Below, one piece after another: positions 5,040 to 57,796 of a stretch of 60,755 nucleotides of DNA. Source of the DNA: a virus; IMG/VR virus record IMGVR_UViG_3300024518_001962, positions 1 to 60,755 of that record; one strand, written 5' to 3'. Every line of letters begins with the position of its first letter. The stretch's first letter is position 1. A program made the translations under genes and the position numbers. The notes under the pieces were generated by a model. That model was not told the origin of the DNA. It made no database searches and saw only the letters and a list, made by a program, of their open reading frames with translations.

Positions 5040-5215
5040 TGTCCTCTCCCTTTCGGTGTCTGTTTTTCGTACCCGGGCGGCGTGAATTCATGCTTACAAT
5101 CGGCACATCTCAGAAATGCCTCCGGGTAATATGTCGGCCCCTCACCCAGATCCTTCAGGCTGGTTTTACAACTGGCATACTCACATCCACATTTCGGACA
5201 AGCTATAAATTTCAT
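5036..5215 (-). CDS. Small zinc-ribbon protein (59 aa)
   Basis: Reads ACPKCGCEYA near the N-terminus and LRCADCKHEF near residue 40, a two-knuckle zinc ribbon. Start ATG at 5215 follows AGGGGGGAAC. The stop overlaps the next ATG. Zinc ribbons of this size often mediate nucleic-acid or protein contacts; no specific role can be given. Confidence 0.7.
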   Translation of the reverse strand: MKFIACPKCGCEYASCKTSLKDLGEGPTYYPEAFLRCADCKHEFTPPGYEKQTPKGRGQ

Positions 5216-5223
5216 GTTCCCCC

Positions 5224-5418
5224 CTAATTCATGTTCTCGAAATATGCCCAGAATTCGTCCGAATCAGGCGGCAATCCCAGCTTCTCCACCACCCACTCAT
5301 GCCGCTTCATCACCTTTTCTGTGGCCTCGATATTCGTGCCGAACCATGGATTTTCAGCCGCCCACATGAGAGCGCGGCGGTGATGCCACTCGCCCTCGTA
5401 GAGTGGTGGATAGTTCAT
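5224..5418 (-). CDS. NPWFG-motif small protein, copy 2 (64 aa)
   Basis: Contains ENPWFGTN, a Met-Lys-Arg-His, then PPDSDEFWAYF. The same arrangement occurs in the 54-aa protein at 7045-7209, so the two are paralogues. The family appears in other phages as far as I can recall, but I know no function. Start overlaps the upstream stop by ATGA. Confidence 0.7.
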   Translation of the reverse strand: MNYPPLYEGEWHHRRALMWAAENPWFGTNIEATEKVMKRHEWVVEKLGLPPDSDEFWAYFENMN

Positions 5419-5636
5419 TTCCAGGCCCTCACCAGCTCTTTTTTCAGGCGCCCATTCGATGCACGAAGGTCATTTATCTCGCTCACATCCTCGTTCCGTT
5501 GGCGAGTTTTATTCACCTCTTCCTTCTCAAGGGCAACCAACAGCTTCTCTATATACTGTCGGCACTCATGGCAGGAGATGCCGCAGATATCCAGATGATC
5601 CTTTGCCTCTTTTTTAAGTTCCTCATTCCACCTCAT
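5415..5636 (-). CDS. Coiled-coil protein with CxxC (73 aa)
   Basis: The ATG at 5636 overlaps the upstream stop (ATGA), with AAGGAG nine bases before. An HLDICGISCHEC stretch near residues 15-26 could bind a metal; the remainder is a charged helix. No family recognised. Confidence 0.65.
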   Translation of the reverse strand: MRWNEELKKEAKDHLDICGISCHECRQYIEKLLVALEKEEVNKTRQRNEDVSEINDLRASNGRLKKELVRAWK

Positions 5637-53478: not shown

Positions 53479-53494
53479 ATGGTGCGTTCGGCTG

Positions 53495-53564
53495 ATTGTG
53501 ATGCTGGAGTCGAACCAGCTACCGGGGCTTGCATGCCCCTGCTCTGCCGTTGAGCTAATCACGC
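53495..53564 (-). tRNA. tRNA-Cys (GCA)-like, atypical
   Basis: D stem GCTC/GAGC with AACGGCA loop and T stem GCTGG/CCAGC are canonical. The anticodon stem GGGGC/GCCCC closes a six-base loop (ATGCAA), one short, with GCA after T. The discriminator is U, as for Cys. The acceptor pairs only five bases (positions 1-72 and 2-71 mismatch) and no CCA is encoded. Possibly degenerate, or needing editing. Confidence 0.6.
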
Positions 53565-53737: not shown

Positions 53738-53923
53738 CTACTTACGCCCCTTTTTCTTCACCTTTTTCGCCCCGCCCACATAAGGCTTCATATTGTAGCC
53801 CACTGCGTGGTCGAGTCGCCCTTTGACGGCAGCCAGTGAGGCATACCGCTCAGGGGGTGCTGGTGGAGCGTTTACTGGTTTTGGAGGTGGCCCTCCTTGG
53901 GTCTTCGTTGCGCCTTTTCCCAT
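53738..53923 (-). CDS. Small Pro/Lys-rich basic protein (61 aa)
   Basis: Disordered Pro/Ala start (GPPPKPVNAPPAPPERY), then AAVKGRLDHAVGYN and a strongly basic C-terminus (KKVKKKGRK), perhaps nucleic-acid binding. The SD (CAGGAG, 6 nt to ATG) is part of the 3' arm of a nested hairpin. A terminator follows. Confidence 0.6.
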   Translation of the reverse strand: MGKGATKTQGGPPPKPVNAPPAPPERYASLAAVKGRLDHAVGYNMKPYVGGAKKVKKKGRK

Positions 53924-54007: not shown

Positions 54008-54871
54008 CTATTTCAGGTTAATAAGAGGCCTCACCCCGTTTCCACCAAGAACAACAAGCTGGGTGCCAGCCTTAGAGTATAAGATTTTCTCATTCTCTTT
54101 TTGCCGGAAGGCCAAGTATTTCGGCGTCATGCTATCGCCAAGTATTTTGAAGGCTACCGATTCCGCCTGAGCCTCGGCCGCGCGAACCTGCTTCATCTTT
54201 TGAGCGATCTTCATTCGATTGTCAATTCTCAAAAGAGCGACAGCCTGCTTGGCTTTTTCCTCGCCGATTTCAATTTCCCGCTTGCGCTTCTTCTCAACAG
54301 CCTTCGTAATAATTTCAGGGTAATCGAAATTAGAGGAAACTACCGACACGATTTCCATGGGGGTGTCTGCCACAGAGGCAACAAGTATCTTGAATATCTT
54401 CGCCTCAATCTCAGCGCGAGCCGCCCTCATCTGGGTAGTTTCGTATGTGCTGACAACGGCGCGAGATTTTGCTCTGGCCAGGGGCTGAACGTAGGTTCCA
54501 TACAGAACACTAAAAGGCAACACCCTACCTACCGTTGCATTCACTATTTGAGATCCCTTGCGATTAAGCAAGGCCTTGATGCCTTTACCGTCAGACACCC
54601 TGAGGCGTGTTCGGATTTTCACATCGAATTTAAAGTTCAATTCATCCTTCATGAGAACCGACAGCTTCTCGGTAACAGTATCTTCACGATTCTCAACAAG
54701 GATCATCGTGTCCCGGCCCCACGAGGAGTGATTGCCGGGTGCAAGAGTAATCCCAGTCAGGCCATCAGGAGTTTGATTCATCCCGACAAATCCCACCGGC
54801 ACCCTCTCGGTGCAACCGACCATCACGAACAGCAACAATACGACCCACAATGCACTTTTCCACTTTCTCAT
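54008..54871 (-). CDS. SPFH/band-7 (prohibitin-like) lipoprotein (287 aa)
   Basis: Signal peptide with lipobox VMVGC (Cys20), then a band-7 domain: VPVGFVGMNQTPDGLTGITLAPG at the start, VLMKDELNFKFDVKIRTRLRV, and a helical tail (EKKRKREIEIGEEKAKQAV, AEAQAESVAFKIL) that would oligomerise. SPFH proteins scaffold membrane domains and can control proteases such as FtsH; a phage-borne lipoprotein form is uncommon. Possible superinfection exclusion or membrane protection. Co-transcribed with a 2-TM protein by ATGA overlap. Confidence 0.75.
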   Translation of the reverse strand: MRKWKSALWVVLLLFVMVGCTERVPVGFVGMNQTPDGLTGITLAPGNHSSWGRDTMILVENREDTVTEKLSVLMKDELNFKFDVKIRTRLRVSDGKGIKALLNRKGSQIVNATVGRVLPFSVLYGTYVQPLARAKSRAVVSTYETTQMRAARAEIEAKIFKILVASVADTPMEIVSVVSSNFDYPEIITKAVEKKRKREIEIGEEKAKQAVALLRIDNRMKIAQKMKQVRAAEAQAESVAFKILGDSMTPKYLAFRQKENEKILYSKAGTQLVVLGGNGVRPLINLK

Positions 54872-55290
54872 TTCTTCTCTCCCTTAAGAATTTCCCTTAT
54901 GACACGATCTGCCTCAGCGCGTTCCACTTCAGCACCTGGCCGCGCCTGAATAGCCAAATGCCTAATTTCTTCCTTCACTGCTTTTGATACTTTCGGTGGT
55001 GCTGTTACAACAACCTTCTTGGGCGGCGTGAATGGTTGATCCGCTACCTGCTTGCCTGGCGTGAAGGCGAAGAAGTTTAAGGTAATGAATCCAACAAAAA
55101 AAGCCGTCAAAATTGCCATCGTGTAATTGAGATGGAGATTCTTCCCCTTTTGGTATCTGAAGCTTCCACGCCTCGGGCCGCTTCTCACTTGGTGTGTCCT
55201 GAAAAATCGATAGGCCGTAATGCCTATCAAAATAAGAAGGCTATAAGTGATAATCAGCCTTCCAAGATCAAACCAGGTGGTGGGGTTCAT
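54868..55290 (-). CDS. Two-helix membrane protein (140 aa)
   Basis: Membrane helices near 12-28 (IITYSLLILIGITAYRFF) and 58-77 (MAILTAFFVGFITLNFFAF), then a Pro/Lys linker and a charged helix. ATGA overlaps with the SPFH gene and the upstream zinc gene suggest that the three act together. No family recognised. Confidence 0.65.
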   Translation of the reverse strand: MNPTTWFDLGRLIITYSLLILIGITAYRFFRTHQVRSGPRRGSFRYQKGKNLHLNYTMAILTAFFVGFITLNFFAFTPGKQVADQPFTPPKKVVVTAPPKVSKAVKEEIRHLAIQARPGAEVERAEADRVIREILKGEKK

Positions 55291-55625
55291 GCCGTGGCCT
55301 CCTTCGCGTCATAGATTTGCTTCCGGCGATCGTGACTGACACTCCTGCGCTCGTGCGCTTGCGCTACGGACTCGACATCTCGGTTGATGATGTCCCGGTA
55401 GCCTTTACCACCACAGCTTTTACAGGAGCGTTTCGATTCCTTCATCTCCATGTTGGCCGGCTTCTCGATCACAAAATTGCCACGCTTACTTTCCCGGCCA
55501 AAGACGGCCAGCGGATATGGCGTTACGATTTTGATTTCGTACTGAGTTCCCTCGCCGTCACACTGCGAGCAAGTGACTCGCCTCTTACCGATTGGTGCCG
55601 TCATATTGCCTTCGTTCTTGTGCAT
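55287..55625 (-). CDS. DnaJ-type zinc-finger protein (112 aa)
   Basis: Two CxxCxGxG repeats: CSQCDGEGTQ (~19-28) and CKSCGGKGYR (~68-77), as in the DnaJ cysteine-rich zinc domain, without a J-domain. AGGAGG precedes the ATG. Such proteins bind unfolded polypeptide or act as redox or assembly factors. Coupled to the membrane-protein gene. Confidence 0.7.
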   Translation of the reverse strand: MHKNEGNMTAPIGKRRVTCSQCDGEGTQYEIKIVTPYPLAVFGRESKRGNFVIEKPANMEMKESKRSCKSCGGKGYRDIINRDVESVAQAHERRSVSHDRRKQIYDAKEATA

Positions 55626-55647: not shown

Positions 55648-55721
55648 TGGGAGCCAGAGCAGGATTCGAACCTGCGTTCCCAGATCCAAAGTCTGGTGTC
55701 CTGCCGCTAGACGATCCGGCT
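55648..55721 (-). tRNA. tRNA-Gln (UUG)
   Basis: Acceptor AGCCGGA/TCTGGCT (one G-U), anticodon loop CTTTGGA (TTG) between CCAGA and TCTGG, T arm GCAGG/CCTGC, discriminator C and encoded CCA (55650-55648). The first two bases overlap the preceding gene's stop codon. Confidence 0.9.
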
Positions 55722-56845: not shown

Positions 56846-57184
56846 TTAATTATTCTCTGGCGTACTGGAACCTGGATTGTCTCTCGTTTCTTTGTGCCAA
56901 GGAGAGTAGTGAGATTTGCTTTTAAATTCCTTGGTAATCCTTTCCGCTTTTTCTTTCGAGATCTCCTCGGCCGCAACCATGTAAAACTTATCTCCGTACT
57001 TTCCGATTATCGGCGTTTTTTTCGGATCATTTATTAATGCCTCTGCGGCAAGCATGAAGATATGCGTTCGATATAGTGGACTGAGTGATGCCCACCACGC
57101 ATCGATGGCTATTGACTCGGCCACCCTTTCGGGGTCTGCTTCATTGAACGGAATTCTTTCACCAGAATTAAATGGATTTACCAT
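56846..57184 (-). CDS. Hypothetical protein (112 aa)
   Basis: Helical (VAESIAIDAWWASLSPLY, FMLAAEALINDPKK) with a polar tail. AAGGAG is 11 nt before ATG. It overlaps the upstream gene's end by 17 bases. Unrecognised. Confidence 0.6.
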   Translation of the reverse strand: MVNPFNSGERIPFNEADPERVAESIAIDAWWASLSPLYRTHIFMLAAEALINDPKKTPIIGKYGDKFYMVAAEEISKEKAERITKEFKSKSHYSPWHKETRDNPGSSTPENN

Positions 57185-57503
57185 GATTAATTGTTCTCCT
57201 TAAATAAGATGAAGGCCCCCGTTCTATAACTGGCAATCTGGAAAGAACGCCGTAGGCTCGCGCTTGGCGATCATGTTTGTCTTGTTCATGATGACGCTCA
57301 TGCGTAGGCGCTCTCGGCGAGCGCAACTGAACCCCTTCTCTCCCTGTTCCGTTGCAGTAAGGGCAATCACCGGGTCTAGGTGGTCCTCGATGAATTATCG
57401 GTCCTTCAATATTATCCCACCGCTTGCGTATATCTTTCATGAACTCATCAGCTAGATGGGTTTTATATTCCTCTTGTTTGATATACTCAGCTATTATCCC
57501 CAT
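57168..57503 (-). CDS. Hypothetical protein with CxxC-GTG motif (111 aa)
   Basis: ATG at 57503, AGGAG upstream. Helical N-terminus, then CPYCNGTGREGVQLRS, half of a zinc ribbon, then a basic tail. Function unknown. Confidence 0.6.
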   Translation of the reverse strand: MGIIAEYIKQEEYKTHLADEFMKDIRKRWDNIEGPIIHRGPPRPGDCPYCNGTGREGVQLRSPRAPTHERHHEQDKHDRQARAYGVLSRLPVIERGPSSYLRRTINHGKSI

Positions 57504-57796
57504 CACTCATCTCCTTTCAATGCGGCGAGGGCTTCATGCACATCTAGTCTCGCCTGATTGTAATTATCGGGTTTGTTTGGCGCACATCGAGGACATACGA
57601 CAGGGACATTTAAATCCTCATAGCCTTGCAGTTTCTCTAACGTCTTAATCAACGCCGCCACATCCTTGCGGAAGGGGGTGAGTTCGGTAGTACAAGTTTC
57701 TCTTAGTTGACTTCGGGCAATCATGTCGTAACTATTTTCTTGGTGGTATCTATGGGTATCAACTATCTTCTCAATCGCATCATCAAGTTGTCTCAT
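57503..57796 (-). CDS. Hypothetical protein (97 aa)
   Basis: GGAGG six bases before the ATG at 57796. Helical with an N-terminal His-rich segment (IVDTHRYHQENSYDM), LTPFRKDVAALIKTLEKLQG and VVCPRCAPNKPDN. The plan (helices, FRKDVxAL, CxxC, then a helix) recalls 60323-60595. Unknown. Confidence 0.6.
   Translation of the reverse strand: MRQLDDAIEKIVDTHRYHQENSYDMIARSQLRETCTTELTPFRKDVAALIKTLEKLQGYEDLNVPVVCPRCAPNKPDNYNQARLDVHEALAALKGDE

Follow-up and report, generated by a model that had tools for sequence, protein, structure and literature searches.

A phage SPFH lipoprotein and an adjacent two-helix membrane hairpin protein form a linked gene pair in diverse phages and some bacteria

We show here that a protein of the SPFH fold class carrying a lipobox is encoded, in diverse phages and in bacteria, in linkage with a small two-transmembrane (2-TM) hairpin protein. 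The real unit is this pair: a hairpin gene lies beside the SPFH gene in almost every relative that we examined, and the pairing appears to be new. In open-access papers, a body of literature that leaves out most subscription journals, we found no description of the pairing, of the topology of the partner, of the mobile copies in bacteria or of the loss of the lipid anchor in one group. The statement of an earlier note, made from the sequence of the present locus, that no phage system of this composition had been described therefore holds for that literature, where no published SPFH–hairpin pairing was found.

The gene run and its SPFH lipoprotein

The window, by which we mean the whole 60,755-base virus record, contains a run of three minus-strand genes (Table 1). 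These open reading frames match exactly, in coordinates and in description, the three overlapping genes that the earlier note had read there. Adjacent genes overlap by 4 bp (ATGA), and a strong Shine-Dalgarno sequence precedes each of the three starts (AAAGGAGGGAACAATG, GAAGGAGGCCACGGCATGA and AAGGGAGAGAAGAAATGA). The tRNA-Gln gene on one side is the likely boundary of the run. Beyond the small Lys-rich ORF on the other side, ARAGORN reported an odd tRNA-like gene (53494-53564, minus strand) with an undefined two-base anticodon, "gc", which adjoins a tRNA-Pro gene.

Table 1. Features of the three-gene run and its flanks, with the parts of the two membrane-associated proteins and the Kuttervirus hairpin ORF
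Feature	Position	Strand	Basis or remark
Double-CxxCxGxG zinc protein, 112 aa, no J-domain	55287-55625	-	ORF
2-TM hairpin protein, 140 aa	54868-55290	-	ORF, hydropathy, AF2
2-TM protein: TM1	residues ~9-30
2-TM protein: cationic loop	between TM1 and TM2		7 K/R, net +7
2-TM protein: TM2	residues ~58-76
2-TM protein: Pro-rich stretch	after TM2
2-TM protein: C-terminal helix	residues 119-138
SPFH/Band-7 lipoprotein, 287 aa	54008-54871	-	ORF, Pfam, PHROG, AF2
SPFH protein: signal peptide	residues 1-19
SPFH protein: lipobox	Cys20		VMVGC
SPFH protein: SPFH domain	residues ~24-195
SPFH protein: coiled-coil long helix	residues 186-247
SPFH protein: further helix	residues 250-267		followed by short tail
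tRNA-Gln (TTG)	55648-55721	-	ARAGORN; directly upstream of the run
Small Lys-rich ORF	53738-53923		other flank of the run
Unannotated 69-aa hairpin ORF, Kuttervirus PhiSH19 (L066)	~2430-2640 of JN126049.1 72500-77500	-

The window protein is firmly assigned to SPFH. It matched Pfam Band_7 with an E value of 2.6e-8 (34.6 bits, cut-off 23.6), PHROG_200 "lipoprotein" matched it across residues 3-286 (1.4e-31), and in an AlphaFold (AF2) model built from a 31-sequence alignment (pLDDT 83.3, pTM 0.63) an SPFH fold leads into a coiled coil. Foldseek searches with this model gave nearly full-length matches, with human prohibitin (8rrh, 1.1e-14) and E. coli HflK/C (7vhq, 6.9e-13) at the top of the PDB list and with stomatin and QmcA also among them; profile matches were likewise to stomatin and prohibitin chains. 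Thus, the check by structure prediction and profiles that the earlier note had proposed recovers the fold. The lipobox was also read correctly: VMVGC follows the signal peptide and fits the pattern [LVI][ASTVI][GAS]C, so that lipidation is predicted, all 31 aligned sequences have its Cys, and a lipobox-like match is present at all phage loci checked.

By tblastn, the best phage relatives of the window protein are 24-32% identical and occur in 122 phage records, among them Nankokuvirus, the PS119XW/Psa21/RVTF4 jumbo phages, pf16, ACP17 and Vibrio phages. Scanning viral contigs with the SPFH protein of the window gave no relatives, and in a maximum-likelihood tree the sequence forms a long branch whose exact place is unsure. 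Phage SPFH lipoproteins as such are already catalogued (PHROG_200 "lipoprotein" and the phage records just mentioned) and are not new. The protein of KPP10 and PAK_P3 has been mentioned without explanation (PMC8540360), a phage SPFH lipoprotein has been noted with the comment "reason ... unclear" (PMC13239085), and a Kuttervirus SPFH lipoprotein was recovered from a phage preparation by mass spectrometry with three counts (PMC10892097).

CxxCxGxG occurs exactly twice in the zinc protein encoded by the first gene, at residues 19 and 68, and two motifs arose in 0 of 100,000 shuffles. The earlier description of a DnaJ-type zinc protein without a J-domain thus stands for the motifs but not for the family. 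The protein has two motifs where the DnaJ central zinc domain has four, and since its score against Pfam DnaJ_CXXCXGXG (26.9 bits, E 5.7e-6) misses the curated cut-off of 32.7, "DnaJ-type" is a description of the motif and no firm family assignment. A second small CxxCxGxG protein (CPYCNGTG) is encoded on the same strand ~1.5 kb upstream of the zinc gene (57168-57506). No double-CxxCxGxG protein was found near the other fetched SPFH loci, and tblastn of the zinc protein against 50,697 phage records gave no match. The idea that the three genes form one conserved unit was therefore rejected, the search for the triplet in other phages having shown the zinc gene to be absent from other SPFH loci. 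The zinc protein, probably cytoplasmic, is a local addition to the operon, coupled in this phage only. The IMG/VR relatives that share the terminase end before the region; a scan for near relatives with a neighboring gene product found none; and the named organisms counted in the SPFH search do not include the terminase-related phages HTVC027P, HTVC023P, 023Pt_psg01 and DSL-LC04. Given these three observations, the module looks accessory.

Linkage and predicted topology of the hairpin partner

The earlier proposal of a dedicated 2-TM partner for a lipid-anchored phage SPFH protein gains support from the linked hairpins found in diverse SPFH loci. An automatic rule (a co-directional 2-TM neighbor ≤130 bp away) flagged 47 of 55 SPFH loci, comprising the window, named-phage records and IMG/VR loci; L043, which is cut off, was excluded. 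The remaining eight were inspected by hand. Three had start-codon artefacts (L033, L034 and L035), and at four the partner lies one or two small genes away (L006, L054, L055 and L061). At the last, L037, the partner (~2515-2840) has an in-frame TGA in its first helix region, which may be a sequencing error, a pseudogene or recoding. Among the flagged loci, the hairpin at L062 is small and the true partner may differ, and at L011 the true partner lies one gene further downstream (5179-5490) rather than at the upstream hairpin picked automatically. A hairpin was also present in 7/7 further named phages (PhiSH19, XacN1, PT11-V22, AhSzq-1, KVP40, F86 and VspSw_1). By the same hydropathy rule only 6 of 103 other small annotated neighbors are hairpins (~6%), a background against which the linkage is to be read as a frequency among clusters that share ancestry and not as a count of independent events.

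Phages carrying the pair include Nankokuvirus, the PS119XW/Psa21 jumbo phages, pf16, KVP40-like and T5-like phages, Kuttervirus and XacN1, among others. The partner lies upstream of the SPFH gene in the window, PAK_P3, pf16 and Kuttervirus and downstream of it in ACP17, V45v66, KVP40, the T5-like phages and the bacterial loci. Because gene order differs between phages in this way, the linkage has outlived rearrangement. The annotation of the KVP40 partner as FxsA (PF04186) is not reproduced by current Pfam. As a separate observation, an RNA ligase gene lies a few genes from the pair at L003, L005, L006, L011 and L070; the unrelated phages with such a gene near the pair are PAK_P3, pf16, Boevelstad, vB_PseuGesM_254 and AhSzq-1.

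In the window, hydropathy and an AF2 model both place two hydrophobic helices in the 2-TM protein, as the earlier note had read it. The model consists of two long helices and a C-terminal helix; it has no strands and the protein has no Pfam NfeD match, and an identity with NfeD was rejected on these grounds. Searches with hmmsearch and hhalign detected no sequence homology between this protein and the other partners; the Kuttervirus, PAK_P3 and KVP40-type partners are likewise separate from one another by BLAST. Its identification as a partner like the others thus rests on position, size, hairpin architecture, topology and charge, and coupling, not on sequence, and, with homology undetectable, a function shared with them would follow from position and architecture. 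This divergence, together with the lack of conservation of the zinc protein, would be expected if the window SPFH gene merely adjoined an unrelated membrane gene and zinc gene. We consider such a chance arrangement quite unlikely, since the window genes have 4-bp overlaps and strong ribosome-binding sites, and since size, hairpin, charge pattern and adjacency are as in the relatives whereas the background is low.

The partners are predicted to share one topology. In all 43 non-redundant partner clusters, collapsed at 70% identity, the loop exceeds the N-terminus (0 or 1) in K/R residues. By the positive-inside rule, the cationic loop would therefore be cytoplasmic and both ends periplasmic, on the same side as the lipoprotein, and the window protein is accordingly predicted to be N-out/C-out. 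The tails are Pro-rich with a helical end and span ~45-84 residues, or 9 in Kuttervirus; those of subfamily B carry a motif like QPSYxPKGxxxRSxxPxFxxxxxxIEDRxxKP. Only one SPFH locus (L038) has Asp at position +2, so that by the enterobacterial +2 rule most of the SPFH lipoproteins would sort to the outer membrane. Such sorting fits an inner-membrane HflKC-like cage poorly, and the proteins could form outer-membrane-anchored rings instead.

Bacterial copies and genomic context

When GTDB genomes were scanned with subfamily B, 14 loci were recovered from Comamonas, Lampropedia, Acidovorax, Thiopseudomonas and Marinifaba; an earlier scan of genome contigs with subfamily A gave no match. In whole-genome searches the pair was present in 17/53 Comamonas genomes, in 1/301 drawn from the wider family and in 3/369 in the class, and its distribution in bacteria is thus patchy. 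The partner directly follows the SPFH gene in 20 of 21 distinct bacterial loci, the exception being L087, where the available stretch contains no partner and a transposase-like ORF lies downstream. The copies from Comamonadaceae make up a clade that lies within the phage sequences of the maximum-likelihood tree, and the one from Thiopseudomonas clusters with an IMG/VR phage, a pattern consistent with more than one transfer of the pair between phages and bacteria. At three Comamonas loci (L076-L078) the SPFH protein has no lipobox Cys and carries a hydrophobic N-terminal segment (LLALVLAGERVE), and the partner gene is kept. This N-terminal helix anchor suggests an inner-membrane, periplasm-facing site for the complex, like that of HflK/HflC (PMC12048511).

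The neighbors of the bacterial copies were named by reading their translations rather than by profile matches. Comamonas copies L074, L086 and L102 lie near prophage lysis genes (Rz/endolysin-like ORFs at L074 and L086) or an integrase-like ORF. Chromosomal copies at L076-L078 lie beside ResB/CcsB-like (cytochrome-c) genes and that at L085 beside a DsbD-like gene, and these lack lysis genes, which argues against an envelope or lysis module, such as a spanin-like or lysis-timing device linking the membranes. A lipoprotein combined with an inner-membrane protein that has a periplasmic tail does resemble a spanin pair; endolysin and spanin genes lie upstream of the Nankokuvirus region, and the Rz/endolysin-like ORFs near the two Comamonas loci also speak for such a module. 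The SPFH fold, however, is no spanin fold, and PAK_P3 already has annotated spanins. A lysis role is thus very improbable.

Among exclusion proteins, small 2-TM proteins and phage lipoproteins are typical (T4 Imm, Cor/Llp), and the pair combines both types. It might accordingly be a periplasmic and inner-membrane complex that keeps later phages from passing their DNA in or from using the receptor, in line with the conjectural anti-superinfection role that the earlier note had suggested. The location of the three Comamonas copies beside prophage lysis genes or an integrase-like ORF points in this direction, as does the gene order in Kuttervirus PhiSH19, in which PF17420 ("Superinfection exclusion gene product 17"), the unannotated hairpin ORF and the SPFH lipoprotein gene follow one another with start and stop codons overlapping on both sides. 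The PF17420 label is, however, a family name only, and the carriers are mostly lytic phages. We found no PADLOC match at E ≤ 0.1 and rejected a known defense system; a search of NCBIfam gave nothing useful. Moreover, exclusion proteins tend to act early, whereas the PAK_P3 pair, gp40-gp41, was not reported as over-expressed early: it lies in a structural, mostly late region and is not among the five early exceptions of that region (PMC4933390). Superinfection exclusion therefore seems to us rather unlikely.

Possible function and comparison with known systems

By analogy with HflKC and prohibitin, the pair may form a periplasm-facing SPFH scaffold with the hairpin as its anchor or adaptor, acting in the handling of membrane proteins, a proposal that we favor over the others and regard as about evenly balanced between right and wrong. 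In such a scaffold the SPFH protein would be held at the periplasmic side of the membrane by its lipid, or by a helix in the three bacterial relatives, and the hairpin protein would sit in the inner membrane with its loop in the cytoplasm and its tail in the periplasm, as its predicted topology implies. The SPFH subunits would most likely oligomerize, as HflK/HflC and prohibitin do, to form a ring or dome above the inner membrane, to which the hairpin protein would bind. The complex would then probably wall off or re-route the handling of membrane proteins in the infected cell, for instance by capping host HflKC-FtsH or competing with it. Phage membrane proteins might be stabilized as a result, or envelope permeability or DNA entry altered. 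A broader interpretation, possible but in our view short of probable, is that the pairs constitute a distinct mobile class of phage SPFH system, passed between phages and bacteria, in which a periplasm-facing SPFH lipoprotein and a hairpin replace the NfeD/FtsH operon partners and build a phage-made compartment over host inner-membrane machinery.

The constant partner gene and its constant predicted topology turn an orphan SPFH annotation into a testable two-component system, for which PAK_P3 on P. aeruginosa PAK, KVP40, Kuttervirus and the chromosomal copies in Comamonas are tractable carriers. The presence of the pair in many unrelated phages and some bacteria points to a little-noticed remodeling of the bacterial envelope by phages. 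If the pair re-tunes FtsH or envelope proteostasis, it would represent a novel type of envelope take-over by phages.

Among known proteins, the closest to the window lipoprotein are the other members of PHROG_200 (the SPFH/Band 7 proteins of PAK_P3, KPP10, PS119XW, Vi01 and others), with which it shares the lipobox, SPFH domain and coiled coil and from which it is very divergent, at 24-32% identity. HflK/HflC and the mitochondrial prohibitins have the same fold over their full length, and the SPFH domain of the window protein is predicted to be periplasmic, like that of HflK/HflC. HflK and HflC, however, are encoded by two paralogous SPFH genes and are anchored by an N-terminal transmembrane segment, whereas here a single SPFH gene (an SPFH query of the window record gave one match only) is joined to a hairpin gene and the anchor is a predicted lipid, with a helix anchor only in L076-L078. 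The pairing of an SPFH gene with one for a small membrane protein in an operon is a known theme from NfeD (PMC2636767), although the window partner is not an NfeD protein by Pfam or by its model. The SPFH–NfeD operons QmcA-YbbJ and YuaG-YuaF likewise consist of two genes, the second for a membrane protein of ~140 aa. NfeD proteins, however, combine roughly three hydrophobic segments with a soluble domain of beta-barrel fold (PMC2636767), and QmcA-YbbJ is oriented toward the cytoplasm (PMC13086221), whereas the window partner has two helices and a Pro-rich, helical tail that is predicted to be periplasmic. The PF17420 gene 17, hairpin and SPFH run of Kuttervirus differs from the window in its first gene, which is unrelated to the zinc protein, and in its almost tailless hairpin, but both are runs of three coupled genes that end in a hairpin and an SPFH lipoprotein.
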